A stretch of DNA of 64,000 bases from a virus, in IMG/VR virus record IMGVR_UViG_3300025111_000052, positions 1 through 64,000 of that record, one strand, 5' to 3'. This document shows, piece after piece, positions 7,623-59,813 of this stretch. The notes beneath the pieces are model-generated. The model saw nothing but the letters and a program-made list of their open reading frames with translations, did no database searches and was not told the DNA's origin. Each line of letters opens with the position of its first letter. Position 1 is the stretch's first letter. Position numbers and translations under genes: made by a program.

Positions 7623-7955
7623 ATGCCAGGATGCACTGTATGCTTAACATTTAGTGGTACCGCACAAGAATTGTGGGAAGTAACTCATGGTACCACTGCT
7701 TATGGCAATTTACCACAGTATAAAAAAGACCAACATGTAGGTAATAAATGGAACCCTTGTCCATACTCTACACAAAGTGACGACTTACGTAGTGCTCATA
7801 GGCTGGGTATTGTACCCACTAAGGTAGACCACACTGACGATGCTGGTAAAGTATACTACATGTCTCCAGATAGAAGAAATTCCTGGGGCTATGCGTGTAC
7901 TTTCGATAATTGCCCATATTTACTAACTAACGGAAGAAGCTATTTTTATAAGTGA
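7623..7955 (+). CDS. Small conserved-looking protein with scattered Cys and His
   Basis: A 110-residue protein starting MPGCTVCLTF (CxxC) with later cysteines near residues 45, 91 and 97. It is rich in Tyr, His and Asp. The cysteine spacing is loose for a classical zinc finger, so metal binding is only possible. It ends immediately before the inserted HNH endonuclease gene, so it marks the left insertion boundary of that element. Confidence 0.45.
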   Translation: MPGCTVCLTFSGTAQELWEVTHGTTAYGNLPQYKKDQHVGNKWNPCPYSTQSDDLRSAHRLGIVPTKVDHTDDAGKVYYMSPDRRNSWGYACTFDNCPYLLTNGRSYFYK

Positions 7956-7960
7956 TTACT

Positions 7961-15200: not shown

Positions 15201-15320
15201 ACTACACCACAAGTCTATACAGATCAATACTATAATACAGGAAAAGCAGTAACAGTTTATAAATCAGGAACTGATGTAACACCTGTAATTATAGAAGGTA
15301 CAGCCACCCAATATGACTGA
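12252..15320 (+). CDS. Tail fibre/adhesin-like protein, paralogue 2 with duplicated inserted domain
   Basis: A 1022-residue protein with the same plan as its upstream neighbour. The N-terminal module opens MAYENIKLSKANF, with DGYYLWSL and LILGPNS. A lectin-like domain follows, and the C-terminus is a Big_1-type Ig domain (SLGANPLILPADGKS, IVQDQYGNGMINKPVSF). The lectin-like domain is split. Between NFGVVQEI (about residue 370) and YENIYAYIK (about residue 770) lie two tandem copies of a ~195-residue beta-rich domain. Each copy runs from F.D.F to GTGLDN.YIS or GTGLDNISI. The insertion accounts for most of the size difference from paralogue 1. A receptor-binding role is inferred. Confidence 0.6.
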   Translation: MAYENIKLSKANFVVIDGYFYFLDYIKNSLICKVDDGSTAFEYPTDTIIGTAVKSLQYDGYYLWSLQNHPSGGLLFKKWAIINFICVLIDSFEYISNTVYTYSAEAFGVEYYKTYITSIANTHTNVLYINEYYDSVITVGTKLILGPNSYQQREEVEVATVIGGQITLTDSTLYKYNNDDLVCLCNSFFVFNNYDGVDPLKGTLFRFDSYSGHLLSAAVDLDYKDVTAATFYRLQNVLPDHPDAHTLVYVKNTNAKLLDMSNLVNLTAASSFNDNFNGVDHSDPNSSLWSITNGSPEILNNMLSCSTSANGHSSIESNYYLMGDFEVQVSGTVGSLTTFSGTPGYLEHYVEIDSSSNNTYNFGVVQEINYLDTIFKDNFLSGGVNWQNVTGTADYSLGYLKQTTDGALTRTIEEIVYGTNYNVLFMFKNAGRGIGDSTYIVNPLYIDVNNRLSVIMYNYSSTTYNVELIKIIGGGSTSLYKDQKYNYYDLYGTWFYVRLLVTNGKIYFRVWMAGVTEPVIWDYISDSTVASNLPSQSRFYSWAQYTSINGTGLDNVYISNLVTTDATTNVFNDDFSLSNAQWTDTIPTTVYTAGYMNHITDGATSITNDTVYYGTKWEVFFKFKNHGRGVNADQYIVSPIYFDANNKLYVYMNTNSYLTGTNYISLNKSISGVVTTIYTSYKYNYYIYYGYWYNIRIARSDDFIYFKVWIDGSLEPTNWDYIGPAAGADLPVEAYLQSQAVYTGDAGTGLDNISIKTYEVVDYSEAPYENIYAYIKTNDTLIEKTHLYSGLTTYPTYLLKINKNGANLAFEYKTTTSGIYNDTWNSLHIATDYGSQATLALGAEAVSMINSAVYFDDLIYTSGKGYVGELTTELFGVMNMDNVRADQVTNIAIYDLAINKDTMYRLQLEATYYGVDNSWATYNYQTSPIRPFVDFISLGANPLILPADGKSVSVITAIVQDQYGNGMINKPVSFTDNNTIGYITTPQVYTDQYYNTGKAVTVYKSGTDVTPVIIEGTATQYD
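13362..14535 (+). repeat. Tandem domain duplication inside a fibre gene
   Basis: Two consecutive ~590-base units (about 13362-13950 and 13951-14535) encode related domains. Shared landmarks in order: F.D.F....W; G...TDGA......Y(G)T; F.FKN.GRG......YIV.P.Y.D.NN.L; KYNYY..YG.W(F/Y)..R; I(Y)F.VW..G..EP..WDYI; and a final GTGLDN. The DNA copies have diverged, so the duplication is old or was imported as a pair. Confidence 0.7.
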
Positions 15321-25933: not shown

Positions 25934-26341
25934 ATGTATGATATAAAATGTACAGAATGTAAAGGTTTGCTAATAGTGGATATGGAATTATCCAGAGAAC
26001 ACTTGTGGACTTCTGATAAAGTTATGTACACCAATACAGGGGTACTAATCGAAGAAACAATAAATTCTGAGTTAGTATATAGATGCATAAATTGTGAAAA
26101 ATTATTTAATTTGACATATAAAGATTGGGAATCGCAAATTAGAAAACAGTTGGCTGAGGAAATAATGCATTTAAAGAGACGTATATCTTTTAGAAGTTTG
26201 GACCCGTATATAATAGACCCAGACAACGGTTTAACATTCTGTGGTCAATGCCCTGGTTATGATAATTTAGGTAACTGCTTTTTAGATATAGTAACAAGAT
26301 GTGAATTAAGAAAACAAAAGTTGGATAAAAATGGCCTATAA
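25934..26341 (+). CDS. Zinc-ribbon protein in the fibre operon
   Basis: A 135-residue protein starting MYDIKCTECKGLL (CxxC), with a second CxxC pair (CINCEKLF) about 50 residues later and a third cluster, CGQCPG...C. The first two pairs form a classical zinc-ribbon layout. It has a helix-rich middle (RKQLAEEIMHLKRR). It overlaps the next, 2266-residue gene by 11 bases, so the two are coupled. A role as assembly chaperone or adaptor for the huge neighbour is possible but not shown. Confidence 0.6.
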   Translation: MYDIKCTECKGLLIVDMELSREHLWTSDKVMYTNTGVLIEETINSELVYRCINCEKLFNLTYKDWESQIRKQLAEEIMHLKRRISFRSLDPYIIDPDNGLTFCGQCPGYDNLGNCFLDIVTRCELRKQKLDKNGL

Positions 26342-29300
26342 TTTTTTAAATACTGCCCATAAAATAAGCAATGATTTAAGTTGTGTATACGATAATTCTA
26401 ACGCGTATATTACCGACTTTTCTACTAACGGTAACGTAGGTGGATGGGACGTTTATTATAATGTGTACTTTTACGGTTGCTGGCATAATGTCCTGTTTGG
26501 TACCGCTGCCGATAGATCCTGTTATATTGGTAGAACAGATAACATGCTACCTATTACAGCAGAAGATTATTATTATGTAAAAATAATGTTGAAAATTACT
26601 AATAATAATAAAGATAAACGTAATCAAGGTTTAACAAAAGGTAAATTACGTTGGATAACATTAACCGATGACATTTGGGACAGCAATAAAGAGTTTGAGT
26701 TTGATCTCATTGTAGACGATCAATGGCATTTATATGTATTAAATTTAGGCCCCAGCAAATACTGGGTTGGGGACATTTGTAATCTACGTGTATACCCTTT
26801 TATAGACGGTTGGGAGAAAGATCAATTTGCTATAAAATATATAACTATAAGCTCATCAGATAAGTTTAAATGTGTTAATACACAATGCTCTTATTACCAA
26901 AATTATACACATCCATGTCCTGGTGCCGGAGAACGTGGGTATTGTGTGGCTGGGCAAGGGTATGAACAATATACAACTACGTCTGGTAGTGATATTGTAT
27001 TAATAAATATAGATGGTTATGGTGAAGCTAAATTTCATTTAGGAGATAATTCCAATGTAACTATATATGAAATGGCTCACATATTAAATACTAAATTAGG
27101 TTCTTTAAGTATTGGTGGTTATTGCTACTCCTCTGTTGAAGTAGATCAAGGAAAGTTAAAAATACGCTCTGGTACAACAGGTGCTAATAGTAGTGTTTAT
27201 GTAGCTCATAGTCAAGCCGCTGTGGTGTTAGGTTTTTTTAATGACTCCGCCGCTAACATATCAACCTGTGTCGATGGGACAGACTTTGCTTCTGGTTTTG
27301 ATTATGCTTCAAGTCGCCTGCTAACTGCCACAGAATTAGGTAGTCTGATTGATAGTAATACTAATATCATAGGCTACACACACAATGCACAACAATATAA
27401 CGTAGAAGGAGGTAGATCTGACTATAATGAAATTGGCTACACCTCATCAACCGCATATGTACAAGGGGATGAAGGAGTCACATTAGTAAATAGAGGTAAA
27501 ACTATAATAGATTGGTCTCATCCTTTTAATAGCAACGGTAAAATAAAACATATATACGTATATGCTACAAGATATGACAATGCTAAAATTTTAATTTGCC
27601 GCCCCAAATTAGATGGAACACTTAGCATCATATACTCTTTACCATTTCCACAATTAACAGGTAATTTTTATTCTAACATTAGCTTTACACATTGTATAGA
27701 CTGTGATATACTTGTAAACAAAGGTGATTTGTTAGCTATATACGATGCTGATGTTTCAATAGGCATATCTTTAACAAATAAGCCTGATGCCACATACAGC
27801 CAATTAGATGGAGAGCCGACAGGTACTTTTAATCCAGGTACTGCATATTCTATGGGTGTAGGAGGTTTAGCCATATATGCAAGAAGTGATAAATATCAAA
27901 CAAATACTCTTCTTGATATTGATTTTGGTGATAGGTTGAATATTGAAGAATTTACTATATATGGTAAAGAGTCAGCAGACTACTTTGAATATAATGTGGC
28001 GATGTGTTTAGATGTAAATTGGCGTGTAAATTTACATGGAGGTAGTCATAAGCATACAATATGGACCGCCACAACCTCTTATACAGTTACGCACACTAAT
28101 ATAGCTTATGGGTTAGAGTCTCTTTCTGATGGAAAAATAATTGCTGAAAATAATATAGCTGGACAATCATACACAACTGATACAACTGGTTTAGTCACTG
28201 CTGGAACACACTCATACTTTTACGTTAATGGTGACGCTGAATGGTTACAACCAGAGGAATTTGGTCCTACGGTAATGGCCAATGTGTACGAATTTGTAGA
28301 AGATCCAGTAACATTAACTTTGGTTTTTCCTACCAATAAATCGTGTGAAATACATAAATCTATAATATATTTTAAAGAAGAAGATAATTTTAGAAGTTTT
28401 GCCTTATATACTGGTTTAGGTGTATATGGATACAACGGTGATTACGTTGATGCACAACACAAACTAATACCAAAATATAATTATATAAAAATAGACGGCA
28501 TAAACTATGATTATACAAACAATGAAGATATAGAGGCTTACCTATTTAGTAATCCTTGTTCTATTGATATATTGCATGATGGCGATGGTTACATGGTCGA
28601 TACAGACAACTTTTTTGCGGCAAACGCAGCCTATTGGACCGTGCTAGAACATGGTTTTGATCCTATTAATAGTTTCGACTTTAATATAAGGTGTAATTAC
28701 CATAATAGTACTAAAATAACTGAAATAGAAGTTTATAGTAGGATGTACTTTGAACCGTCAATAATTGATAATGTGTCACTTATTTATTCTACTTATGGTG
28801 AAGAATGGAAAGATGCTGTATTTAATGTAGAAGAAGCAGACATAATAAGTGCTTTTATAGGTGGCGCCCCAAGATACATGAAGCTATCATTACAAACCAC
28901 CACTTCTTTTAGTGTTAATGAACTTTTTTGTAAAACAGGGGATCAAGTAAAAACTTCAAAATGTGATGACAGCATATTATTGGACGATGCTAAAAATGGT
29001 GTTGTTAATAATAGTAAACTTTACTATGTAGAAAATATTTATGATAGGCCTTTTGATCTTATAGTTGATATACCAAAAACAACCAATGTAGATACTTCTG
29101 GTATAGTATTTTGGAGTAAATTAAACAAACAAGAGGATATCGATAATCCTGATATTGGGCCGCCGGCCATATTAAGAAAAGCAGAAGATTTTATATTAAA
29201 CACTGATAGTGGACAATGTGCTATTAATACTCCGTGTTATGGTTTGAATAATCTAATTAATAATAAAGAAGCTTACTACTCCTGTAATGAACACGATTGG

Positions 29301-32300
29301 TTTTCGTATGACACTCTAATTTCGGGTACAAGTTTAAACTTTAATTTAGATGGTTATTTAAATACTCAAATTACTGAAATAACCGTTCCAGAAGTCTCCG
29401 CTACTTATTGGAAATTACAATTAGACTCTATTAGTAAAGACTGTATTTTAAAGGATATATTAGCTTTTTATGATGATGTCCGTGTACCAATAGAACTTGT
29501 TTATTTAAATCAAACCATTGGTACTACCTCCATGACTAATGCGCTATTAAGTAATGGTGTAGATATTGATGTACCAACACTCGTAACTGGTAATGACACC
29601 TTTGACGGTATAGACGGGGCTAACTATAATACTTATCTATGGCAGGATAATATGCTTTTTGATGATTCAGCCTCTTACTGCCATATAGTTAGTAATAAAT
29701 TACAGTTGAATCTGACTACTTCTGAGGATGGCACTTACGTGCTTAATTATATACCTATAATAGACTCAGATTTTTCGGCGGAAGTGAGTGTACTTATATC
29801 TTTTCCAAGTCAAGCAGACAGACTTAGTGTAGGCCTAGGTATTAGAGGAGAACGTGGGGGCTTTGTCGGTATAAGAAAGCATATATACAGTAGTTCAGGA
29901 AGGTACTATAATTTCGATAAAGATGCTTGGTATAGTTCTGTAAATTACATTTACAATGCTATATTAAACTTTGACTTAAAAATAACAAAAGTTGGAACAT
30001 TGATATCTTGTTATTTTAGAACCACGGGTGTATCCACTTGGACTACTCTATCTTCTGGCTATAATTATGACGGTTTTACTAATGATAGATTAAAAATTGA
30101 ACTCTATACTCATATATTACTAGCATTTCCTAATGTAGTAGTTACATTTGATAATTTTATTTTAACGGCCACAAATATACTTTATCCGGCTTTAATATAT
30201 TCTTCTAATTATGCTTTGGGGTTTAAAACTATAACCAATGATCCTATTAATAAAATAAAATTAGTACATGGTGCATCAACGTTACAAAACCCAGAATTGC
30301 TTATTAGCTATAATAATATTAATTATTTCACAATAGGCAACTATACAAGCACCACGTCAAACCATTCTGTGCATTTAGCAATAGATTTATTAAAAAGACA
30401 TAATTTAAACATAATACGTAATTATGGTGTGTTAGATAATAAGTTATTTTTATCAACTGATTTAAATGTAGATTATGCTAATACTAATACCACACTCCCA
30501 ACTAATGTTACTTTTAATAATAGTAATAAAACAGATGCTCGTTGGGTACGAATTAATATATCCGCGTCAGATACCACATTAAAGGTTATAGATAAATTGG
30601 GTATATATCCTAATATAGCAGCGACCTATTGTATAGATGGTGGCTATAATTGTGAATGGTCTTCTCTTGGGACTACACTTTCTGATTATAGTTTACCCAG
30701 TAATGTAGCATATGGATCATCTGTTGAAGCAACTAATTATATAGATTACATGACCCCTGATAAAGCAGTAGATGGTAAATACTCTTCTGGTAATACAGAG
30801 GATTGTTGGGCTTTTGATGGAATAAGTCCGCACATAGATATATTATTTAATAATGATTATGTAGTAAATAAAGCAAGAATACACCACTCATTTAGTGTGG
30901 ATGATTCCAATTTTATAAATAGTGCTTTTACTGGTTATATATCTACAACAATTTCAGGAGAAAATTTTATACAGGTATTTAATACATCCAGTAATATGTC
31001 CAATGAAACCACCCACTATTTTGATCCTGTTACTGCACGTAGATTTAGACTTGTGATAGACTCTTATACTAATACACCTATTTATTTAGGGGATGGCTCC
31101 TATTTTACTGGTAGTTTTTTAAGAGAAATTGAAATTTACACTGCCATGCAAACTACTTACATCGATAGTGAGCGCTTTCCCATAGTTTGTATGAATTTAA
31201 AAGACAGTTTCACCGTAATAGGGCATGAATTAATCAGCAACGATCCTAATAATTTAGATATAGCATGGAATAATTCAAATGAGTTTTTTAAATACTCTGA
31301 AAGTTTGTCAGATGACCCTAAAAAAGTATCTTTTAATTTAGACGGCGATTATACTCTTATATACTATACTGCAGAAGACTCTGGAGATCAAGCAGGTTCA
31401 TTGGAGTACTTATTAGAGAGCTCTTTATACTTAGATAAAGGACCTTATGTTGTACGATGGCAGGGATATGATTTGACCTCCGAAGGAGAAAGTGGTGTAC
31501 GTTTGGAAGGTAACAGCGTAATTGATGCTCCTGGCGCTAACACAGGTGTTGCTATATGGGTAGATCAAGAAGTGTCAATAACAATACTCGACAGTGGCTA
31601 CTATACAGTAAAGGGATATCAGTTCATAAATACCGATGAAAGTTGGGGTATTAGAAATGTAGGTATATACAGAATATCAGATTATTCAAGATGGTTGGCT
31701 ATTACCCGTGATACGGCCACAAATTACGCCTACGACAATATTACTTCCGAAGAGGGTGTAGATACACTTAGCCTAATAAAAGTGTATGGCGAAGGTTCTT
31801 ATGCCCCTACTGCGTACTCCTGGTGGTGGACATCCACCATTAGCACATTAAGTAATGATTTACAGTTTGTAAAAGATTCTAATAAGTCACTAAAAATTGC
31901 ATATCCTGCTTCTACTGAGGAGGATACTGTGGTGTTTATCCCTGGGGATAACCTTGGTATTGATGATAAATGGTCCATTAAAGACTTATTTACTTTTCAA
32001 TTATATGTTTCGGACGCAAGCAAAATAGATAGCTCTTTTGGTGATATAACATTAGGTATAGCTAATACAAATAAAGAAAACTATTATAGATGGTCTTTAA
32101 ATGACATTACCTTAGTAACAGGATGGAATAGTATAAGACTTAAATTTGAGGATTACAGTTCATTATACCCATTGAACGATAACTCTTTTTATAACCTAAT
32201 AAATCAAGATCTTAATTTTGCATACGCGGAGGAAGGATTTAATTATGTTATGCTTAGATATAGAGGCACCGGGCAAGCTGTAACACTTTATATGACCTCG

Positions 32301-33131
32301 CTAAAAATAGAACGAAATTGTTTTGATGACGTAGTTAAGTTTAATAATGGGCTTTATTTAAACAACAGGGATTTTTTACAGATACCAGTTAGTGGTCTTA
32401 ATTTAACTAAGGGTACAATTGAATTTTGGCTTAAAACTTATTATGACTCCTATGGTAGAGACATATTTGATAAATTGCATTCAAGAACACTATTTTCAAT
32501 AGTAAACAATGATAATAACATAGTATCCCTTGGTATTAAATCAGGACATTGGTTTGAGCTTGCCGCGGGGCATATCAGACGTAATATAAATTTAGTTAAT
32601 GCAGATGCTTCCTTTGCTCTATCAGGCTACTTCGATATTAATACTTTAATGCACGTGGCTGTTGTATGGGATAACAACGGTATTACTACTGATAATAACG
32701 ATACCATTAGATTATATATTAATAATGTTCTTATATACAGTGGTAAAACCACGTGGGAAATCAAGGATACAAAGGATTTAATTATACGTTTGGCTGGTGG
32801 TAACACGCCCTTAGCTTATAACTATGATTCCCCTTCTGGCGGGGGTGTGTACGAGAACCTTAAACTTTATAATTATTGTAAAACAACTTTTGATATAAAT
32901 AAACAGGATATAAGTACGGATATAGCTTATGATCCAAACGACTACATGGAGATATCCTCCGATAATATAACCTTCTATAATATAGGTAGTGCCGAACTAC
33001 CCATAACTTTTACTCAGGTGCCTGTCGGCGAGAAAAGGGCTATTTATATAAGAGCCAATAAAACAAAAGGCAATTTTAATAATAGCGGAAAGACAGGACA
33101 ATTATTAATATCTTGGCTAACCACGGTGTAA
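26331..33131 (+). CDS. Very large fibre/adhesin-like protein (2266 aa) with multiple sugar-binding-type modules
   Basis: A mosaic protein. Residues ~185-215 hold a cysteine cluster. Residues ~220-325 carry the shared module (VLINIDGYGEAKFHLG, IRSGTTGANSSVYV, VLGFF). Residues ~1085-1280 look like a concanavalin/LamG-type sandwich. Residues ~1470-1610 resemble an F5/8-type C (discoidin) domain, with DKAVDGKYSS, CWAFDG, then ARRFRLVIDS and LREIEIY. Residues ~2000-2190 form a second LamG-type domain (TKGTIEFWLKT, HVAVVWDNN, IRLYINNVLIYSG). These families commonly bind glycans or other surfaces, so host-surface binding is inferred. No hydrolase catalytic motif was noticed. Confidence 0.6.
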   Translation: MAYNFLNTAHKISNDLSCVYDNSNAYITDFSTNGNVGGWDVYYNVYFYGCWHNVLFGTAADRSCYIGRTDNMLPITAEDYYYVKIMLKITNNNKDKRNQGLTKGKLRWITLTDDIWDSNKEFEFDLIVDDQWHLYVLNLGPSKYWVGDICNLRVYPFIDGWEKDQFAIKYITISSSDKFKCVNTQCSYYQNYTHPCPGAGERGYCVAGQGYEQYTTTSGSDIVLINIDGYGEAKFHLGDNSNVTIYEMAHILNTKLGSLSIGGYCYSSVEVDQGKLKIRSGTTGANSSVYVAHSQAAVVLGFFNDSAANISTCVDGTDFASGFDYASSRLLTATELGSLIDSNTNIIGYTHNAQQYNVEGGRSDYNEIGYTSSTAYVQGDEGVTLVNRGKTIIDWSHPFNSNGKIKHIYVYATRYDNAKILICRPKLDGTLSIIYSLPFPQLTGNFYSNISFTHCIDCDILVNKGDLLAIYDADVSIGISLTNKPDATYSQLDGEPTGTFNPGTAYSMGVGGLAIYARSDKYQTNTLLDIDFGDRLNIEEFTIYGKESADYFEYNVAMCLDVNWRVNLHGGSHKHTIWTATTSYTVTHTNIAYGLESLSDGKIIAENNIAGQSYTTDTTGLVTAGTHSYFYVNGDAEWLQPEEFGPTVMANVYEFVEDPVTLTLVFPTNKSCEIHKSIIYFKEEDNFRSFALYTGLGVYGYNGDYVDAQHKLIPKYNYIKIDGINYDYTNNEDIEAYLFSNPCSIDILHDGDGYMVDTDNFFAANAAYWTVLEHGFDPINSFDFNIRCNYHNSTKITEIEVYSRMYFEPSIIDNVSLIYSTYGEEWKDAVFNVEEADIISAFIGGAPRYMKLSLQTTTSFSVNELFCKTGDQVKTSKCDDSILLDDAKNGVVNNSKLYYVENIYDRPFDLIVDIPKTTNVDTSGIVFWSKLNKQEDIDNPDIGPPAILRKAEDFILNTDSGQCAINTPCYGLNNLINNKEAYYSCNEHDWFSYDTLISGTSLNFNLDGYLNTQITEITVPEVSATYWKLQLDSISKDCILKDILAFYDDVRVPIELVYLNQTIGTTSMTNALLSNGVDIDVPTLVTGNDTFDGIDGANYNTYLWQDNMLFDDSASYCHIVSNKLQLNLTTSEDGTYVLNYIPIIDSDFSAEVSVLISFPSQADRLSVGLGIRGERGGFVGIRKHIYSSSGRYYNFDKDAWYSSVNYIYNAILNFDLKITKVGTLISCYFRTTGVSTWTTLSSGYNYDGFTNDRLKIELYTHILLAFPNVVVTFDNFILTATNILYPALIYSSNYALGFKTITNDPINKIKLVHGASTLQNPELLISYNNINYFTIGNYTSTTSNHSVHLAIDLLKRHNLNIIRNYGVLDNKLFLSTDLNVDYANTNTTLPTNVTFNNSNKTDARWVRINISASDTTLKVIDKLGIYPNIAATYCIDGGYNCEWSSLGTTLSDYSLPSNVAYGSSVEATNYIDYMTPDKAVDGKYSSGNTEDCWAFDGISPHIDILFNNDYVVNKARIHHSFSVDDSNFINSAFTGYISTTISGENFIQVFNTSSNMSNETTHYFDPVTARRFRLVIDSYTNTPIYLGDGSYFTGSFLREIEIYTAMQTTYIDSERFPIVCMNLKDSFTVIGHELISNDPNNLDIAWNNSNEFFKYSESLSDDPKKVSFNLDGDYTLIYYTAEDSGDQAGSLEYLLESSLYLDKGPYVVRWQGYDLTSEGESGVRLEGNSVIDAPGANTGVAIWVDQEVSITILDSGYYTVKGYQFINTDESWGIRNVGIYRISDYSRWLAITRDTATNYAYDNITSEEGVDTLSLIKVYGEGSYAPTAYSWWWTSTISTLSNDLQFVKDSNKSLKIAYPASTEEDTVVFIPGDNLGIDDKWSIKDLFTFQLYVSDASKIDSSFGDITLGIANTNKENYYRWSLNDITLVTGWNSIRLKFEDYSSLYPLNDNSFYNLINQDLNFAYAEEGFNYVMLRYRGTGQAVTLYMTSLKIERNCFDDVVKFNNGLYLNNRDFLQIPVSGLNLTKGTIEFWLKTYYDSYGRDIFDKLHSRTLFSIVNNDNNIVSLGIKSGHWFELAAGHIRRNINLVNADASFALSGYFDINTLMHVAVVWDNNGITTDNNDTIRLYINNVLIYSGKTTWEIKDTKDLIIRLAGGNTPLAYNYDSPSGGGVYENLKLYNYCKTTFDINKQDISTDIAYDPNDYMEISSDNITFYNIGSAELPITFTQVPVGEKRAIYIRANKTKGNFNNSGKTGQLLISWLTTV

Positions 33132-51658: not shown

Positions 51659-52777
51659 ATGACAATTAAAGGTATAAAATATATAGGGCCAATTCTAGAC
51701 AATTCAGGTTATGCAAAAGCCTGTCGTGGTAATATTCTGGCACTCCATTCACTTGGTGTACCTATAACGTTAGATCCAATTTCTTTTGAAAAGTCAAAAC
51801 CAGACTTAGGTGCTGATGGGGTTCTTTTAACAAAGTTAATGGATGCTAAGGTGGACTACGATACAGTAATTATACACACGACACCTGAATTCTGGTCTAG
51901 ATACAGAGAAAAAGACAAGAAAAATGTTGGTTACACTATATGGGAAACAGATCTATTGCATCCAGACTGGAAGAGCTACATTAATAGTACTGTTGATAAA
52001 GTTTTAGTTGGTTGTGAATGGAACAAAGAGGTGTTTAAACACAGTGGTGTTACAATCCCTATTGGTGTAGTGCCTCATTGTATGGATTTAAGTCATGTAG
52101 CCACATCTACTCCTTTTGATGTAAAAGGAGTATCCAAAGATACCTATATGTTTTATGCTATATTTCAATGGACTGAAAGAAAACATCCGACAGCATTAAT
52201 AAAGGCATACTGGCATGCGTTTCAGAATAATGAAGATGTGGCTCTTGTATTAAAAACTTATCGTAGTGATTACAGCGAGGAAGAAAAAGATGCCATAAGA
52301 ATTACCATAAGAAAACTAAAAGCTATTACTCCTATGGACAAATATCCACCCATTTATTTATTACCAGACATGCTAACAGAAGATGAAGTTAATGGATTAC
52401 ATAAAAGAGGTGATTGTTACGCCTCATTAGACCGCGGTGAGGGTTTTGGTATTGGGCCTTTTATGGCCGGAGCTTTTGGTAATCCCATAGTAGTTACAGG
52501 GTTTGGCGGCGTGACAGAATATGCCAAACAAGATAATAGCTATTTAGTAAATTACACACTAACACCCGTTTATGGTATGCCATGGAGTCCATGGTATAGA
52601 GGTGATCAACTTTGGGCAGAGCCTGATGTGAAAAATGGCGCTGACTTAATGAAGTTTGTTTATGACAATAAAGAGGCCGCCAAAACAACAGGGCAAAGAT
52701 TAAAGCAGTATATAAATACTAATTTTTCTTTAACCACCATTGGTACAAAATTACTTAAAGAACTTGAATTAAAATAA
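51659..52777 (+). CDS. Glycosyltransferase, GT4-like
   Basis: A 372-residue enzyme, the first gene of the sugar island. It has an N-terminal Rossmann half (YIGPILDNSGYAKACRGN, VGYTIWETD) and a C-terminal half with YAIFQWTERKHPTALIKAYW, then SLDRGEGFGIGPFMAGAFGNPIVVTG. That last segment is the nucleotide-sugar-binding region with two acidic residues seen in GT4 retaining enzymes. It is distantly similar in plan to the intron-bearing enzyme at 47949. Donor and acceptor are unknown. It ends six bases before a methyltransferase gene. Confidence 0.82.
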   Translation: MTIKGIKYIGPILDNSGYAKACRGNILALHSLGVPITLDPISFEKSKPDLGADGVLLTKLMDAKVDYDTVIIHTTPEFWSRYREKDKKNVGYTIWETDLLHPDWKSYINSTVDKVLVGCEWNKEVFKHSGVTIPIGVVPHCMDLSHVATSTPFDVKGVSKDTYMFYAIFQWTERKHPTALIKAYWHAFQNNEDVALVLKTYRSDYSEEEKDAIRITIRKLKAITPMDKYPPIYLLPDMLTEDEVNGLHKRGDCYASLDRGEGFGIGPFMAGAFGNPIVVTGFGGVTEYAKQDNSYLVNYTLTPVYGMPWSPWYRGDQLWAEPDVKNGADLMKFVYDNKEAAKTTGQRLKQYINTNFSLTTIGTKLLKELELK

Positions 52778-52783
52778 TATATT

Positions 52784-53266
52784 ATGACTAAAAAAACTTT
52801 AAACATTGGTTGTGGCAACCGCATATATAAAGAATATCCCAAAGGGTATACGTGTGTAAACTTAGATATACGCCCCTTAGAAGGTGTTGATATAGTAGGT
52901 AATGTTGAGGCAGTAGACCTGCCCAATGAGCAGTTTGATTATATACTTGCGAGCGATATAATAGAACATTTCCCAATAAGCAAAACTATTGGTCTACTTA
53001 AAGAATGGGCCAGATTATTAAAGCATGGCGGTGTAATGGAAATTCGTACACCAAATATGCAATGGGCTGTGGAATATTATAGACAAACAGGTGATGCTAA
53101 GTTTGTTTCTTACCATATGTTTGGTGGACAAGATTACCCAGGTAACTTTCACTTTGTTATGTTTGATGTCAAATGGCTATCTAATTTATGTATAGCTGCT
53201 AATTTAATACCTTCAAATCATAGCTTTGAAGGATCTAATTTTATATTGGAAGTATATAAAAAATGA
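52784..53266 (+). CDS. SAM-dependent methyltransferase, class I
   Basis: A 160-residue protein with motif I LNIGCGNRIY (residues ~6-15), an acidic motif II (VNLDIRP) and the post-I segment FDYILASDIIEHFP, typical of the small Methyltransf_11-type fold. A long helix and HGGVMEIRTPN (motif III) follow. It likely methylates a small molecule or sugar; nearest neighbours are glycosyltransferases on both sides. It has no target-recognition domain of a DNA methylase. Confidence 0.82.
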   Translation: MTKKTLNIGCGNRIYKEYPKGYTCVNLDIRPLEGVDIVGNVEAVDLPNEQFDYILASDIIEHFPISKTIGLLKEWARLLKHGGVMEIRTPNMQWAVEYYRQTGDAKFVSYHMFGGQDYPGNFHFVMFDVKWLSNLCIAANLIPSNHSFEGSNFILEVYKK

Positions 53267-53275
53267 GGTAAGTAG

Positions 53276-54166
53276 ATGAATGGGTGTATATTAAGGGCTG
53301 TATATAATAGACCAGAGATGCTTTATCTGTCTATGGAGTATGAAATAAAAGCACGTAAGCAACTAAGTACAGACAATTATAGTACTTTATTTGCATTAGA
53401 ACACAACGCTGATCCTAAATGTGTTGAGCTAATTCAAGATTATTATCCTTTTGAAAAAACAGTTGTTACAAGATCATTTAGGCATTTTGGTTGGGGTAAT
53501 ATTTTAGAAGGGTTTAAGCAGGCTTTTTTTGAAGGCGCAGATTATGTATTAAACATAGAAGATGATTGTTTGCTGCATGAAACTTACTTTACATATATGA
53601 ATACAGCATTAAACTTATTAAAGGGTAATAAATTTTCTGTTATTAATGCTAGTCGTAGATTAGTGCCTAATACAAGTATAACTGGTGTGCAAGCTACAAA
53701 CCTATTTGAAGCGCCGGCCTGTTTAATGAACGGATATTTTTTTAATAAGTATGTAAGGCCTTATGCCACATATGATTATTATACTAATAGAGAGACCATC
53801 ATCCATTTGGTTAATAAACGCAATGGGGATGACAAAAGATCTAAATACAGGGCGGAGCGTAAAAATTTATTTCAGCATATTGGTTGGGACGGTCTTGTTA
53901 ATAGACTAATAGATACTGCTTTTATTGAAGAAGGTTTAAGATCTTATTCTCCTATGTGCGACAGACAAATACACATAGGATTTTATGGTCAAAACAGGAT
54001 TGGTAAACTACCTTTTAAGCACCCGGAGTTCGCAGATCGTGTCGAGGCTTTGAGAGATACTGCATTAAACGCAGCCAAAATGATGCAATTAGATCCTAAC
54101 TATAAAGATTATGTAGATTTTGCATCGCAATTAGACGCTTGGTCTGGGGAACTTACCTTAATATAA
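53276..54166 (+). CDS. Glycosyltransferase-like protein, GT-A type
   Basis: A 296-residue protein. The start CILRAVYNRPEML is the beta-alpha beginning of GT-A enzymes. YVLNIEDDCLLHE near residue 95 supplies the D-x-D-like metal site. Further on are phrases rich in aromatics and His. It resembles the GT2-like and capsule-type transferase group, though the family is not certain. It begins 10 bases after the methyltransferase and ends ahead of a strong AAGGAG site for the next gene. Confidence 0.65.
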   Translation: MNGCILRAVYNRPEMLYLSMEYEIKARKQLSTDNYSTLFALEHNADPKCVELIQDYYPFEKTVVTRSFRHFGWGNILEGFKQAFFEGADYVLNIEDDCLLHETYFTYMNTALNLLKGNKFSVINASRRLVPNTSITGVQATNLFEAPACLMNGYFFNKYVRPYATYDYYTNRETIIHLVNKRNGDDKRSKYRAERKNLFQHIGWDGLVNRLIDTAFIEEGLRSYSPMCDRQIHIGFYGQNRIGKLPFKHPEFADRVEALRDTALNAAKMMQLDPNYKDYVDFASQLDAWSGELTLI

Positions 54167-54178
54167 GGAGTAATTTAA

Positions 54179-54952
54179 TTGAAAACAATAGAACAAACAA
54201 GTAATCATTTAGACACATTGATAAATGGGGGTTCCCCATTTTACTTTGTAAGGTTTGGTGATGGAGATTTAACTCTTATACAAGGAGCACCTAATGAACA
54301 AAGGCATAGAAATAGTGTTAAACTACGACAGGAATTAAGGGAAGCTTTACAAATATTCGATCTAAATTATGTAGTAGCTAGTACTGCCGGTTCCTTTGAA
54401 GATGGGAGCGGTAGTTATTTTTGGATAAAAAATAGAGTACAGCAGCAAATTCTGGATGGGCAGCTTAGACATATTTGGAAGTTACTACGAGGTAACCCAG
54501 ACGAAGGTTATCATGCGTTAATATTTCAATATGCTTTTGAACATAAATTAGAGTGGTTTGTAAAATTTATTGATACTATGTTCTATGATAAAAAAGTATT
54601 ATTGGTAGCCGGCGAACCTTTGTGTAATAGTAACCTTATAGAAAAGATGTTTAATATTAAACACACAGTATCTTTTACAGGGGTGGACAATGCTTATTAT
54701 GCCTTAGATCGTAAAATGGAAGAAATACTTGACAAACTACAAACTTGTGATATAATTCTTCCTGTAATAGGTATGGCTACACGTGTATTAGCCAAACGCT
54801 TATGGAAAGATCATAATATAAGAAACAAAAGTTTAATTGATATAGGTGTTACTATGGACGCTTTGGCTGAGGCCCCACATAGAGGTTGGACCCAACGTGT
54901 AATAAATGAAGGGGTCATAGAAAAATACAAAAAATACTATGAGGTGCTTTAA
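54179..54952 (+). CDS. GT-D-type glycosyltransferase (DUF1792-like)
   Basis: A 257-residue protein with a TTG start eight bases after AAGGAG; no better ATG exists nearby. FYFVRFGDGDLTLI near residue 22 is the signature of the GT-D fold family (DUF1792), where a G-D-G-E/D motif holds the donor and metal. The family's C-terminal phrase is also present: CDIILPVIGMATRVLAK ... SLIDIGVTMDAL. These enzymes add sugars in glycoprotein and surface glycan assembly in bacteria. Its stop shares one base with the next start. A consensus promoter sits in its 3' part. Confidence 0.72.
   Translation: MKTIEQTSNHLDTLINGGSPFYFVRFGDGDLTLIQGAPNEQRHRNSVKLRQELREALQIFDLNYVVASTAGSFEDGSGSYFWIKNRVQQQILDGQLRHIWKLLRGNPDEGYHALIFQYAFEHKLEWFVKFIDTMFYDKKVLLVAGEPLCNSNLIEKMFNIKHTVSFTGVDNAYYALDRKMEEILDKLQTCDIILPVIGMATRVLAKRLWKDHNIRNKSLIDIGVTMDALAEAPHRGWTQRVINEGVIEKYKKYYEVL
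54729..54756 (+). promoter_or_regulatory. Perfect sigma70-consensus promoter inside a gene
   Basis: TTGACA (54729-54734), a 16-base spacer and TATAAT (54751-54756) match the consensus at all 12 positions. It lies 196 bases before the first sulfotransferase-like gene and could drive the second half of the sugar island. Confidence 0.55.
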
Positions 54953-55596
54953 TGAAACAACTTATTTTTGGTCTTGGTACAGGTAGATGCGGTACTGTAT
55001 CTCTTAAAGAATTGTTAGGTCTGCAGAACGACTTTACTTCAACTCATGAGTTAGTAATAACTCCATGGCAGTTTAGCAAAGGACACATAGATAAAACCAT
55101 TGCGTATATGCAAAATAGGCCCTGGGGCTTTTCGTCATGTGATGTATCTTTTTGGCATTTACCTTATGTTATATACATATTGGATAAATTCCCAAACTCA
55201 AAATTTATTTGTCTTAAACGAACTAAAAAAGACACTGTTGCTAGCTATATTAAAAAGACCGCTGCTAACACTAAAACAGGGCTAAAAGAACGAAACCATT
55301 GGACAGCTAGGGATAGTATTTATTGGGACAGTAACTTGTGGCGCCTTGATCCAATTTATGATAATTGTTATCCAAAATATAATCTACCAAAAATAGATGC
55401 AATAGAACAATATTGGGACGACTATTATAATTTAGCAGCAGAATATGCTGCAGCGTTTAAAGACAATTTTATGTTATTTAATACGGAAGAAGTATTGAAT
55501 GATGAAACCACACAATCTAAGTTATTAACTTTTTTAAATATACCTTTGTCCAATAGAGTTATTAATACCCAAATAAATGAAAATAAAGGAGCATAA
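54952..55596 (+). CDS. Sulfotransferase-like protein 1
   Basis: A 214-residue protein. FGLGTGRCGTVSLKELL at the N-terminus matches the PAPS 5'-phosphosulfate loop style of sulfotransferases ('G..RSGTT.L..LL'). FPNSKFICLKRTKKDTVASY near residue 80 fits the 3'-phosphate-binding segment (R-x4-DTVASY). Such enzymes move sulfate from PAPS to a hydroxyl, typically on sugars or lipids. There is no signal peptide, so it would act in the cytoplasm. Some related P-loop proteins are not sulfotransferases, so the activity is probable rather than certain. It is coupled to GT-D upstream and overlaps the preferred start of the next frame only marginally. Confidence 0.7.
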   Translation: MKQLIFGLGTGRCGTVSLKELLGLQNDFTSTHELVITPWQFSKGHIDKTIAYMQNRPWGFSSCDVSFWHLPYVIYILDKFPNSKFICLKRTKKDTVASYIKKTAANTKTGLKERNHWTARDSIYWDSNLWRLDPIYDNCYPKYNLPKIDAIEQYWDDYYNLAAEYAAAFKDNFMLFNTEEVLNDETTQSKLLTFLNIPLSNRVINTQINENKGA

Positions 55597-55597
55597 C

Positions 55598-56128
55598 ATG
55601 CCAACATCGAGACCCTACCCCATAGCACACATAGCTTCCAGAATCATCGACTTACAACCAAAAACCGTATTAGACATAGGGATTGGGTTTGGAAAATATG
55701 GTTTCTTAGCCAGAGAATACACAGATATTTGGAACAATCGTTTTAGAAAACCTGAGACTGTTATACATGGCATAGAAGTATATGAAGAGTACATCACTGA
55801 AATACATAGACAAATATACAATAAAATTTTTATTGGCAATGCACTTGATATATTACCTACATTAGGTAACTATGATTTAATTACTTTTTGCGATGTTGTA
55901 GAGCATTTTGAAAAAGAAGATGGCATTAAAATGATGAATCTGGTCCGGGATAAATGTAAGAATGCCTTTATAACTACCCCTACTTTAAATAGATTTCAAA
56001 AACGTGGTGGTGTTGCGGGTAACCCTTATGAACAACATGTTTATGGTTGGAGTACAGAAGATTTGAAGGCTTGGGGTAAAGTAACCACATTTAATAATTT
56101 TGTTAATCTATTGGAGATTGTAAAATGA
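55598..56128 (+). CDS. SAM-dependent methyltransferase, class I
   Basis: A 176-residue protein starting at 55598 because AAAGGAG lies just upstream; the in-frame ATG at 55577 is inside the sulfotransferase gene. Motif I is VLDIGIGFGKYG, motif II HGIEVYEEY, and the post-I segment YDLITFCDVVEHFEKED. The end TTPTLNRFQKRGG...YEQHVYGW is typical of small-molecule or sugar methylases. It overlaps the next gene by four bases. Confidence 0.8.
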   Translation: MPTSRPYPIAHIASRIIDLQPKTVLDIGIGFGKYGFLAREYTDIWNNRFRKPETVIHGIEVYEEYITEIHRQIYNKIFIGNALDILPTLGNYDLITFCDVVEHFEKEDGIKMMNLVRDKCKNAFITTPTLNRFQKRGGVAGNPYEQHVYGWSTEDLKAWGKVTTFNNFVNLLEIVK

Positions 56129-56736
56129 ACGCAAATAAAAAAATAGCTACGGCATTGTGGAAAGATAATTGCAAGATTAATTTACCTTGCGGTATTGGAT
56201 CTGCAGTTAGTGTTACTACTAAAATTAGGGAATTTATCGGAGACCAACTAAAAAATTATAATATTAGAAGCATTAGTGACGCCGGTTGTGGGGATTTTGC
56301 TTGGATGAACTTAGTAGATTTAGGTACTGCTACATATGTAGGTTACGATATAAACAAAGAAATGTTAGATGTCAATAAAACAAAATATCCTAAGGTTTCT
56401 TTTATTGAATTTGATTTAGTTAATCAGCCATTACCTAGGACTGATTTAATTATTTGTAGAGATTGTTTATTTCATTTACCTGATGCTTCTGTAATTAAAG
56501 CTTTAAAATTATTTAAAGCCAGTGGTTCACCTTATTTAATGACCACCTCATATAGAAATGTGATCAGCAATACACCGACATCCTCTGAAAAATTTACGAG
56601 CAAGCGATCACTATACACATCTGAATATGGGTTTAGAGAAATTAATTTAGAAAAAGATCCATTTAATTTATCAGCTCCACTAACTTTTATTGAAGAGTCC
56701 GGGTTTAAACGGATTTTTGGTTTATGGAGGCTTTAA
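56125..56736 (+). CDS. SAM-dependent methyltransferase, class I
   Basis: A 203-residue protein with SISDAGCGDFAWMN as motif I, TYVGYDINKEML as motif II and TDLIICRDCLFHLPD as the post-I segment. The C-terminus holds LYTSEYGFREINLEKDPFNL, a pattern I have seen in sugar-associated methylases. It is the third methyltransferase in the island and abuts the GT32-like gene with no gap, so the products likely act on the same substrate. Confidence 0.8.
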   Translation: MNANKKIATALWKDNCKINLPCGIGSAVSVTTKIREFIGDQLKNYNIRSISDAGCGDFAWMNLVDLGTATYVGYDINKEMLDVNKTKYPKVSFIEFDLVNQPLPRTDLIICRDCLFHLPDASVIKALKLFKASGSPYLMTTSYRNVISNTPTSSEKFTSKRSLYTSEYGFREINLEKDPFNLSAPLTFIEESGFKRIFGLWRL

Positions 56737-57474
56737 ATGCAAATTCCTATTACTGTTTGGACTTATTGGGAAAACCCCGCCGGCTTAAAAACACCATCAT
56801 ACTTAGAATTATGTTTTGATTCTATGGATAAATATTGTAATACAGATAACTTTGTATTTAAACTTGTAGATAACTTAAATATACACGACTTAATACCTGA
56901 ATTAAGAACAGATTTAAATAAATTAAAAGTGTCCAATAATCCCAGAGAGAACATTAGTATTAAAGCGGATTATATTAGAGCTAAACTTTTACAAAAGTAT
57001 GGCGGTATATGGCTCGATGCTGATACAATTGTTATGCGTTCTCCCGATGAACTTGTACCTTTATTAAATAGAAAAGATTTTTTATATAGAACCCAGCATG
57101 AAGGCCTTGCATCAGTAGGTGTAATGGCAAGCATACCTAACGGTGTATTAATCAATGAGTATATAGAACAACAAGATACACTTATCGATACTAAAAAAAC
57201 ATTAAGTTGGGGGGAAAATGGCTCACGTATACTCACACCATTGGTGCGTAAACATTCTGCCATAACCCAATCACTTGGATTAGTTGGTTCTATACCTTTT
57301 TCACATTGGCAACAATACTTTACTAATGTTCTGTATGAGCACGATAAAACGGTTTGGTGTTACCAGCTGTATAATAAAGTATTTCCAGAATGGTTTAAAC
57401 AGCAAAATAAGGAAATTATTTTAAAAGATACCACGGTGATATCGCAGCTTTTTAGGATTTCTTTGGGGGTTTAA
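56737..57474 (+). CDS. Glycosyltransferase, GT32-like (DXD sugar transferase)
   Basis: A 245-residue protein. The start IPITVWTYWENP and the segment KADYIRAKLLQKYGGIWLDADTIV are the hallmark of the GT32/Gly_transf_sug family, whose DxD (D-A-D) binds the metal-nucleotide sugar. HEGLASVGVMAS and WGENGSRILTP follow in the expected order. Retaining transferases of this kind build capsule or O-antigen units. It begins one base after the methyltransferase stop and ends two bases before the SQD1-like gene. Confidence 0.82.
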   Translation: MQIPITVWTYWENPAGLKTPSYLELCFDSMDKYCNTDNFVFKLVDNLNIHDLIPELRTDLNKLKVSNNPRENISIKADYIRAKLLQKYGGIWLDADTIVMRSPDELVPLLNRKDFLYRTQHEGLASVGVMASIPNGVLINEYIEQQDTLIDTKKTLSWGENGSRILTPLVRKHSAITQSLGLVGSIPFSHWQQYFTNVLYEHDKTVWCYQLYNKVFPEWFKQQNKEIILKDTTVISQLFRISLGV

Positions 57475-57475
57475 T

Positions 57476-58645
57476 ATGAATAACACAGTTTTACTTTTAG
57501 GGTGCGATGGTTACATTGGCAATGCTTTAACACAACGTTTGTTAAATAAGGGATTTAAAGTAATTGGTGTAGATAACTTTTTACGAAGATATTGGATACA
57601 AGATCTAATGACCTCTAAGTCTGCTACACCTGTTTTACCCATGGTAGAAAAGATTAGTAAATTTAGTGTTTTGGGAGATTTTATATTTTATGCTATTGAC
57701 TTATTACAAGATAGTAACAAAGTAGAGGAACTGTTTGTTACGTATAAACCAGACACTATCATTAATTTGGCACACATACCCTCTGCCCCATTCAGTCAGA
57801 TCTCACAAGAGAAGGCTGAATTTACTTTGAGGAATAATATAATACCTACAAATAATTTGTTGTGGTATATGAAGGCACATACACCAGATGCGCATTATAT
57901 TACCATAGGAACAACAGGTGAATATGATCATTATAGTAATATAGATATCGAAGAGGGTTACATTAAGATTAATCATAAGGGCAGGATGTCCAATGAAATG
58001 ATTTACCCTAGAAGGCCGGGATCATTATATCATTGTTCAAAAACCGCTTCTACTTATATAATAGATTTTTTAACGCGCACTTGGGGGTTGAGATGCACCG
58101 ACGTACAACAGTCTGTTGTTTTCGGATCGTATACGGATGAAATAGATAAAACTAAGGTATATAGTAGACTTGATAGCGACGAAGCAGGAGGCACTGTCAT
58201 TAATCGCTTTATTGTACAAACACTGTTAGGTATCCCAATGACTGTTTATGGAGAGGGGCTACACCAAAGAGGGTTTATATCATTAAATGATAGTGTGCAG
58301 GCATTAGAGATAGCTGTAAACAATCCACCAGCGGCGGGCAAAGTACAGGTATGGAATCAGTTATCTGAGTGGCATTCAATAATTGATATAACTAAATTTG
58401 TAGAAGAAGTAGCTACTAAATTAGGGATACCCAGCTCTACACAGCATATCCCTTCTCCAAGAAATGAGTATACAGGAGAACATTACTACAACTATGTTGT
58501 TGACATTTTACCTAGTTTAGGTTATACTCCTACAAGAAGTATAAAACAAGAGATAGAATATACAATGGTCACTATTAAAGACATAGTACCAAAAGAGTTG
58601 AAATCAGTTGTTATGCCAAAGATATTATGGGAGCATAAAAAATGA
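57476..58645 (+). CDS. UDP-sulfoquinovose synthase (SQD1)-like short-chain dehydrogenase
   Basis: A 389-residue extended SDR protein. The NAD-binding loop is GCDGYIG (9-15). It follows plant SQD1 through many landmarks: VDNFLRR, SAPFSQI, IGTTGEYD, NIDIEEGYI..NHKGR, SLYHCSK, TDEI, RLDSDEAGGTVINRF, MTVYGEG.HQRG and PSPRNEYTGEHYYNY. Thr146, Tyr185, His186 and Lys189 line up with SQD1 Thr145, Tyr182, His183 and Lys186. That enzyme joins sulfite to UDP-glucose to give UDP-sulfoquinovose. The Arg before SAPYS in SQD1 is Pro here, so substrate or sulfur donor may differ. An ordinary UDP-sugar epimerase is the alternative, but the whole-length pattern favours SQD1. It is coupled to its neighbours by ATGA overlap. 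Confidence 0.78.
   Translation: MNNTVLLLGCDGYIGNALTQRLLNKGFKVIGVDNFLRRYWIQDLMTSKSATPVLPMVEKISKFSVLGDFIFYAIDLLQDSNKVEELFVTYKPDTIINLAHIPSAPFSQISQEKAEFTLRNNIIPTNNLLWYMKAHTPDAHYITIGTTGEYDHYSNIDIEEGYIKINHKGRMSNEMIYPRRPGSLYHCSKTASTYIIDFLTRTWGLRCTDVQQSVVFGSYTDEIDKTKVYSRLDSDEAGGTVINRFIVQTLLGIPMTVYGEGLHQRGFISLNDSVQALEIAVNNPPAAGKVQVWNQLSEWHSIIDITKFVEEVATKLGIPSSTQHIPSPRNEYTGEHYYNYVVDILPSLGYTPTRSIKQEIEYTMVTIKDIVPKELKSVVMPKILWEHKK
58500..58528 (+). promoter_or_regulatory. Sigma70-type promoter inside a gene
   Basis: TTGACA (58500-58505), 17 bases and TATACT (58523-58528) match 11 of 12 consensus positions. It could boost expression of the second sulfotransferase and the DnaX/polymerase genes downstream. 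Confidence 0.45.
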
Positions 58646-59301
58646 GTAAGAACATAAATAGAGTTTTTTGTCATAGAAAATCAGGCGCCTCTTATGTTGT
58701 TAGAAGTATAATGGCTAATTACTATTGTAATGATTTCGACAAAAATCACTGGCATTTTTCAGATAGTATGGTGAAAGCTATTGCGGATAGTGACATAGCT
58801 CTATATGTTGTAAGGGATGGCAGAGACGTGTTATATGATTGCTATGAATATTGGAAGCAACAACCTGGCACAAAAAAACATTTCGAAGGTAAAACTTTTA
58901 GACAGTACATTATGGGATATATAGAGGCTTATAGTGATAAGGATTTATTTGAAAAAACTGCTGAAACTAAAAATCCCCTAGATCCAAGAATGTTTTCGGA
59001 CCCAGTACAGTACTGGGTAGATCATGTGCAAGGGTTTATTAATAGTAACTTAGAAAAGATGTACTTTGTTAACTACGATATGATGCTTATTGATGGCGCT
59101 GCTATGTTAATGCACATTGGAGATTACTTTAAATTAGAACCAAGAAATAAACTCATAGAGCCTTTGGAAGATCTAACTTTGTATAAACCATTGTTTAAAG
59201 ATGTGGGTGTGTGGCGTTTAGTTTTTGGTCAAAAAGACTTAGAGTATTTCTGGGGCCGCGCAGAAGATACAATGATTAAATTAAAGTTTTCTTATAATTA
59301 A
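58642..59301 (+). CDS. Sulfotransferase-like protein 2
   Basis: A 219-residue protein. VFCHRKSGASYVVRSIM matches the PAPS-binding 'P.KSGTTW....i' loop. LYVVRDGRDVLYDCYEYW is the classical 3'-phosphate motif (R-D-x-R-D-V). The end DVGVWRLVFGQKDLEYFWGR resembles the 'G.WK..ft......f' region that closes the PAPS pocket. This is the more convincing of the two sulfotransferases in the island. It overlaps the SQD1-like gene by four bases (ATGA). The acceptor is unknown; a sugar made by the neighbouring transferases is the obvious guess. Confidence 0.8.
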   Translation: MSKNINRVFCHRKSGASYVVRSIMANYYCNDFDKNHWHFSDSMVKAIADSDIALYVVRDGRDVLYDCYEYWKQQPGTKKHFEGKTFRQYIMGYIEAYSDKDLFEKTAETKNPLDPRMFSDPVQYWVDHVQGFINSNLEKMYFVNYDMMLIDGAAMLMHIGDYFKLEPRNKLIEPLEDLTLYKPLFKDVGVWRLVFGQKDLEYFWGRAEDTMIKLKFSYN

Positions 59302-59312
59302 TAGGATTAGAT

Positions 59313-59813
59313 ATGATTAACATAGATGAATACTTAGTTAAATTGAAAGTTATAGTGAGTGAGGTCGATGGTGTAATAACGGACGGGTTAATCACTTATG
59401 ATGAACTTGGTAATGTACCATTTAAATCATTCAATATGCAAGATTTAGATATTGTAAATGAGTTAAAGAAAACCTTTAAATTTACTTTTTTAGCCAAAGA
59501 TCAGTATGTAAATTACAACTTATTCAGACGCAAGAATATTCCTTTTTACTGGGCAGAAAAAGAAAAAGTGGAATTTGTTACTAAGATACTACATCGTTAT
59601 GAAGTAACATTAGATGAAATACTTTATATTGGTTTTGGGTATAGTGACGTACCATGCATTAATAGAATACCTTTTTCTATGTGTCCAAGTAATGCTAATA
59701 AAGAGGTTAAAAACAAAGTAGCCGTTTGCTTGAATACTTCTTCTGGCGATGGTGTTTTATATGAAGTTTATGAATTACTTAAAAACGAAATTGACCGGAG
59801 ACGTCTATGTTAA
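59313..59813 (+). CDS. KdsC-like HAD protein with replaced catalytic residues
   Basis: A 166-residue protein matching the length and order of KdsC-type sugar phosphatases: VDGVITDGLITYDELG, then F..K.FNMQD. Active-site positions are changed. The nucleophile Asp of DVDG is Glu (SEVDG). The Ser/Thr of the 'IITG' strand is Ala (FLAKDQ). The acidic pair of the final 'GDD..D' is F-G (IGFGYSD). The general fold looks kept, so it is probably a non-catalytic relative that binds a sugar phosphate or a partner, or a degraded enzyme. It overlaps the clamp-loader gene by seven bases. Confidence 0.72.
   Translation: MINIDEYLVKLKVIVSEVDGVITDGLITYDELGNVPFKSFNMQDLDIVNELKKTFKFTFLAKDQYVNYNLFRRKNIPFYWAEKEKVEFVTKILHRYEVTLDEILYIGFGYSDVPCINRIPFSMCPSNANKEVKNKVAVCLNTSSGDGVLYEVYELLKNEIDRRRLC

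Follow-up and report, generated by a model that had tools for sequence, protein, structure and literature searches.

SQD1-type enzymes make the sulfur sugar of sulfolipids in plants and bacteria. Bacterial relatives compared here are encoded by S. meliloti pSymB and by Marinovum, at loci that we take to be SqdB, and the S. meliloti gene is presumably required for sulfolipid. Functional residues have been probed in Agl3 of Sulfolobus acidocaldarius, for which the published account (PMC4388408) gives an SDR triad of Thr/Tyr/Lys; alanine mutants of the His or Arg of HFAEQR, or of Met, Tyr or Lys, were inactive, and the Glu147Ala and Tyr148Ala mutants were impaired, with Glu147/Tyr148 mattering for the formation of UDP-glucose-5,6-ene. 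Thr144Ala retained activity, a sign that the understanding of the mechanism is incomplete. We placed the mutated residues using the mutagenic primers printed in that paper, which also lists haloarchaeal proteins as UDP-sulfoquinovose synthases (cluster IV). A viral UDP-sulfoquinovose synthase is already in print, as a putative gene of a Mu-like phage from the Cariaco Basin (PMC7785012); like the gene described below it is phage-borne and annotated to the SQD1 family, a likeness by annotation only. In our literature search this was the single such report, and the available portions of it and of PMC12619734 and PMC11806900 contained no description of the subfamily reported here.

The window analyzed here covers the first 64,000 nucleotides (1-64000) of an IMG/VR virus record that is 152,034 bases long. 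An ATG-started open reading frame at 57476-58645 on the plus strand is a real gene for an SQD1-family extended SDR of 389 amino acids. The protein aligns to Arabidopsis SQD1 over residues 4-386 (254.6 bits, E 1.3e-74) and matches NF041015, the NCBIfam model for UDP-sulfoquinovose synthase, from end to end (354.1 bits, E 8.6e-106), below the curated cut-off of 575. With a score of 332.1, the SqdB-type protein encoded by S. meliloti pSymB likewise falls below 575, so the low phage score does not count against a synthase, and we discarded this cut-off as a membership test because it is non-discriminating. A predicted structure (mean pLDDT 78.5), based on an alignment of 16 viral rows, had SQD1 as its top PDB match at TM 0.89, with the following rows at about 0.6-0.7; superposition on SQD1 gave Z 46.0 across 373 residues, compared with 31.7 for the next fold, and UDP-sugar 4-epimerases were among the next best folds. 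Searched against viral structures, the model returned nothing closer than general epimerases and dehydratases. The original prediction of an SQD1-like UDP-sulfoquinovose synthase thus holds for the family, in that SQD1-family membership in the broad sense is solidly supported by sequence, predicted fold and tree; membership among the synthases proper is not solid, because two residues essential in Agl3 are replaced in all 17 clade members described below.

The full-length SQD1 landmarks and the Thr/Tyr/His/Lys set that had been predicted were recovered by alignment: phage T146, Y185, H186 and K189 correspond to T145, Y182, H183 and K186 of Arabidopsis SQD1 (PDB 1i24/1qrr/1i2b), with which the phage protein also shares the fold and the NIDIEEG and HYYN segments. 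These four residues lie in TTGEYDHY (residues 146-153, 57911-57934, plus strand), which keeps the catalytic Thr146 and a Glu/Tyr pair, and in YHCSK (residues 185-189, 58028-58042, plus strand), a YxxxK catalytic motif with His186. The pair, E149/Y150, corresponds to E147/Y148 of Agl3, so that the phage protein resembles Agl3 in both this pair and YxxxK, and both members are invariant in the 16-row alignment. The kept landmark residues are probably SDR-catalytic rather than sulfite-specific and hence do not demonstrate UDP-sulfoquinovose synthase activity. The [ST]D[EK] acid/base motif of RmlB-type 4,6-dehydratases, the classical dehydratase motif (PMC8987622), is absent from the phage gene, which has TTGEY.

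Around this conserved core the pocket differs from that of SQD1. Relative to SQD1, His96, Glu99, Gln100, Arg101, Met146, Gly150, Asp189 and Gln261 are replaced in the phage protein. Four of these changes fall in NLAHIPSAP (residues 97-105, 57764-57790, plus strand; HFGEQRSAP in SQD1), where the position of SQD1 His96 is occupied by Asn97, while SQD1 TMGEYGT reads TTGEYDH, the Gly-Thr after the Glu/Tyr pair having become Asp-His, and Gln261 is His. The arginine preceding SAPYS had been predicted to be proline, and it is (SQD1 R101, phage P102), but not as a lone change given the replacement of His96, Glu99, Gln100, Gln261 and others. When 17 clade members were compared with 66 R-type rows, 25 columns were fixed differently (at least 90% one residue within each group), including H96N, E99H, R101P, G150D, D189S and Q261H. 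The His and Arg of HF[AG]EQR are absent in 17/17 clade rows, with His replaced by Asn in all 17 and Arg by Pro in 16 and by Ala in one; they correspond to His95 and Arg101 of Agl3, both essential there, and are Asn and Pro in the phage. The SqdB-type proteins of S. meliloti pSymB and Marinovum belong to the same family, and there the gene is followed by a glycosyltransferase-type gene; unlike the phage protein, they retain H[FL]AEQR and TMGVYG and lie in another clade.

Several single residues were considered as subfamily markers and set aside. Proline at the place of Arg101 also occurs in the two haloarchaeal proteins examined and in 9/9 members of a group carrying HYAEQP (the WOR-3 MAG protein L036 and the viral L112-L115, L117, L118, L122 and L123), so Arg101 alone was discarded. 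As the change is shared by the HYAEQP proteins and by these two members of the haloarchaeal group, a group listed as UDP-sulfoquinovose synthases, proline by itself is not diagnostic. The HYAEQP group is also of the SQD1 family; it differs from the phage clade in keeping His96, Glu99 and Met146 and forms a separate clade (99/95). The Agl3 residues Met145 and Glu147 were discarded too, since R-type rows are variable at both. The Met145 place is Thr or Ala in several R-type viral relatives, yet Met145 is essential in Agl3, indicating that the mutant data are not transferable residue by residue.

A scan of viral records with the phage protein gave 22 loci, to which a scan with the alignment added a divergent one (L026), for a total of 23 viral loci. 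Among 84,980 species, represented by one genome each and scanned with the alignment and the peptides WNQLSEW and DGYIGNAL, two loci were found (L024 and L025); the pattern scan demands exact short peptides, such that distant cellular members could escape it. The contigs that carry these two loci are 11,449 and 11,273 bases long and were assigned to a Parcubacteria MAG and a WOR-3 MAG; because the loci are alike in their match to the query (66%) and in their score against the alignment (both 690.7 bits) while sitting in MAGs of two phyla, they are likely one misbinned phage contig. Matches at E <= 1e-50 occurred in 1/147 Parcubacteria and 2/286 WOR-3 genomes, those other than the L024/L025 contig being L036, of the HYAEQP type, and L041, of the SqdB type. 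The clade is known here only from viral contigs and from a single phage-like contig that was assigned to two MAGs. Named phages contained no close copy, with 2 of 50,697 phage records matching at 23-24% identity. Our literature search found no assay of any clade member, and we know of no activity for any of them.

A further viral scan with SQD1, SqdB and relatives returned 95 encoding stretches, from which 79 loci were kept; seven were dropped from the residue table for reading frames below 330 or above 480 amino acids. In the remaining 72 rows, position 101 is Arg in 60, Lys in 2 and Pro in 10, and thus viruses carry R-type proteins as well as the N/H/P clade. Our clade alignments omit the near copies L002, L007-L009, L014 and L025 along with two loci of unusual structure. 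In one of these (L017:5968-7147) the SQD1-like gene is split over two reading frames, through sequencing error or decay. The other (L023:6001-8292) bears an in-frame intein at the conserved DSDE/GTxxNRF segment, recognized by a LAGLIDADG_3 match above cut-off and by Hint_2/intein-splicing matches below theirs.

In a 62-row tree, the 17 clade rows formed one branch (support 99/99), joined by the divergent L026 at 98/99; ordinary epimerases and dehydratases formed a separate branch (100/100), and SQD1, SqdB and the HYAEQP group another (99/97). The clade was again a single branch (99/98) in a 57-row tree with a shorter outgroup; both trees left out Agl3 and cyanobacterial SqdB. The best trees placed the clade outside the R-type synthases, with an AU p of 0.131 when it was held with all R-type rows; holding it with SQD1 and L110 (p 0.287) or with the HYAEQP group (p 0.126) was not rejected either, and the AU tests are thus compatible with several branching orders within the SQD1 family. 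A grouping with one haloarchaeal epimerase pair was 38 lnL units worse and was rejected (AU p 0.0011). Phylogenetic placement had been proposed as a check on the original prediction, and as far as tested, with this one pair, the clade does not lie among ordinary epimerases. Nei-Gojobori dN/dS for five pairs was 0.059, 0.149, 0.110, 0.122 and 0.108, the first pair having a dS of 1.49 that is near saturation; these values, which reflect purifying selection, indicate that the enzyme has been kept functional.

The gene lies in a run of plus-strand genes at 51659-59813 that contains glycosyltransferase-like, methyltransferase, GT-D, sulfotransferase, Caps_synth-like, SQD1-like, sulfotransferase-like and HAD genes. 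The run begins with a glycosyltransferase (51659-52777; phrog_2170, 71.2 bits, with PF00534 below cut-off) and a SAM methyltransferase (52784-53266; PF13489, PF08241), followed by a protein without a Pfam match (53276-54166) that is also found near the SQD1-like gene in the loci L003 (87% identity) and L024 (53%). This protein had no match among named phages and its predicted model was too poor for use (pLDDT 45); its EDD motif makes it a candidate glycosyltransferase. Next come a GT-D fold glycosyltransferase (54179-54952; PF08759, 43.3 bits), a sulfotransferase (54952-55596; PF13469, 35.5 bits against a cut-off of 27), a probable SAM methyltransferase (55577-56128; PF13489, 21.7 bits, below the cut-off of 27) and another SAM methyltransferase (56125-56736; phrog_3382, 132 bits). 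A glycosyltransferase of the Caps_synth/Gly_transf_sug kind (56737-57474; PF05704 41 bits, PF04488 34.2 bits) is directly upstream of the SQD1-like gene, the stop codon of which overlaps the start codon of a sulfotransferase-like gene (58642-59301; PF00685, 18.5 bits against a cut-off of 22). A relative of the latter product in L024 (positions 1086-1757; 23% identity) reaches 52.2 bits with PF00685. A small HAD phosphatase-like protein (59313-59813; PF08282, 30 bits against a cut-off of 20.9) completes the run.

Other viruses also have the SQD1-like gene among a recurrent gene set. Nearly the whole gene order is kept in L003, where most genes are 83-97% identical and two 35-48%, and a small protein of our family 4 lies within the locus in 7/20 loci, as the immediate next gene in L012. 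Nearby sulfotransferases, as originally predicted, are present in the window (one above the Pfam cut-off and one sulfotransferase-like) and recur elsewhere, beside distant relatives: they flank the SQD1-like gene in L021 (269 amino acids upstream, 219 downstream), one is directly upstream in L024, and two lie downstream in L011. PF13469 matched in 6/18 records. A sulfotransferase HMM matched in 6/20 clade loci and in 5/79 loci of the canonical-relative scan, a comparison for which we claim no significance given that the eight proteins underlying the HMM came from records of the clade itself, which biases it, and that locus lengths vary. Sulfotransferases form sulfate esters from PAPS and supply no sulfite, and their presence is consequently no evidence for sulfonated sugars. 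Virus-supplied sulfite was considered and rejected, as the PAPS-reductase family PF01507 had no match in any of 17 records. APS-kinase-like matches (PF01583) occurred in 2/17 records (G006 and G013), and there was none in the record of the window. Two such genes, at L131:1678-2073 (131 amino acids, 63 bits) and L130:1421-1795 (124 amino acids, 79 bits), belong to viruses with an SQD1-like gene and may represent a virus-borne PAPS supply; that of L131 adjoins a protein which, judged by eye, resembles the family-4 protein of L012.

The explanation of these observations that we prefer, and consider reasonably probable although with ample room for doubt, is that the gene encodes a virus-borne, NAD-dependent enzyme of the SQD1 family with a rebuilt pocket, the modified NDP-hexose product of which serves a virus-encoded sulfated glycan. 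A tightly bound NAD would oxidize the substrate, probably UDP-glucose or a closely related NDP-hexose, at C4 through Thr146/Tyr185/Lys189; Glu149/Tyr150 would then assist in the loss of the C6 hydroxyl or act at C5. Return of the hydride would yield an NDP-sugar that is either epimerized or dehydrated (of the 5,6-ene or 6-deoxy type), with dehydration being the outcome we would favor. The replaced residues may line the C5/C6 region of the sugar, and sulfite addition seems unlikely given that the synthase His96 and Arg101 are gone. A neighboring glycosyltransferase would transfer the sugar to a glycan carried by the virion or by the infected cell, and the neighboring sulfotransferases, using PAPS, would then sulfate that glycan; counting against the proposal, most clade loci are without a sulfotransferase (6/20 have one). 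One may postulate instead a pure UDP-sugar 4-epimerase, with a GalE-like outcome on an SQD1 scaffold and no C6 chemistry. Such an enzyme is a serious if doubtful possibility: the C4 oxidation machinery is kept, 4-epimerases follow SQD1 among the best folds, and TTGEY stands in place of the classical dehydratase motif, whereas the invariance of Glu149/Tyr150, tied to dehydration in Agl3, speaks for more than epimerization, and the poor likelihood inside one epimerase pair bears on descent only.

A genuine UDP-sulfoquinovose synthase whose pocket has diverged, making sulfoquinovose for viral glycans or lipids, would account for the full-length SQD1 match, the kept catalytic residues and the retained counterparts of Agl3 Glu147/Tyr148; the NF041015 shortfall is shared with the S. 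meliloti protein, and a tree grouping with SQD1 was not rejected. The replacement of His96 and Arg101 across the entire clade and the 25 fixed differences are harder to reconcile with it, as are the retention of Arg in 60/72 viral relatives and the lack of a PAPS-reductase match in 17 records, though a host could supply sulfite. We consider this unlikely, and the product is probably not UDP-sulfoquinovose; the idea is kept alive by the haloarchaeal proteins, P-type in the two examined, that PMC4388408 lists as synthases and by our having found no assay of the clade. Still more speculative, and quite improbable in our estimation, is that this virus-specific branch has replaced its sulfite site by one for a different nucleophile, whereby a non-sulfite addition to the 4-keto-5,6-ene would supply phage glycans with a novel NDP-sugar modified at C6; the newly invariant His100, His152, His263 and Asp151, possibly near C6, would be its marks. 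That the gene is foreign to the virus, whether as contamination, host DNA or a decayed passenger, might be entertained because few of the window's large ORFs match a PHROG; we regard it as extremely improbable, given the same gene in 23 viral loci, many with common neighbor families, dN/dS of 0.06-0.15, and phage-type replication genes in the window.

Should a modified NDP-hexose for a phage glycan indeed be the product, annotation pipelines would label this gene a UDP-sulfoquinovose synthase and so credit the virus with sulfolipid chemistry that it probably lacks. A conserved group of phages would then produce an activated sugar themselves, from islands in which sulfotransferases can also be present, and this would be relevant to the way in which virions or infected cells are decorated by phages. 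As both the R-type and N/H/P-type subfamilies are viral, the role of His96/Arg101 in sulfite use is directly testable.

The remainder of the window carries UvsX-, DnaB-, primase- and exonuclease-type genes. Among the large, apparently structural ORFs that we scanned, the majority did not match any PHROG, and one large ORF had no named match. A tRNA scan of the window found none and the DNA polymerase had distant named matches only; the tRNA scan and the polymerase and large-ORF matches did not reveal a host. An HNH endonuclease-type gene (7952-8851) lies among unrecognized ORFs. Large proteins encoded at 10369-12240, 12252-15320 and 26331-33131, the first two without a PHROG match, contain Ig-like (Big_1; the second below cut-off) or F5/8 type C domains, which suggest that all three are likely virion surface proteins.
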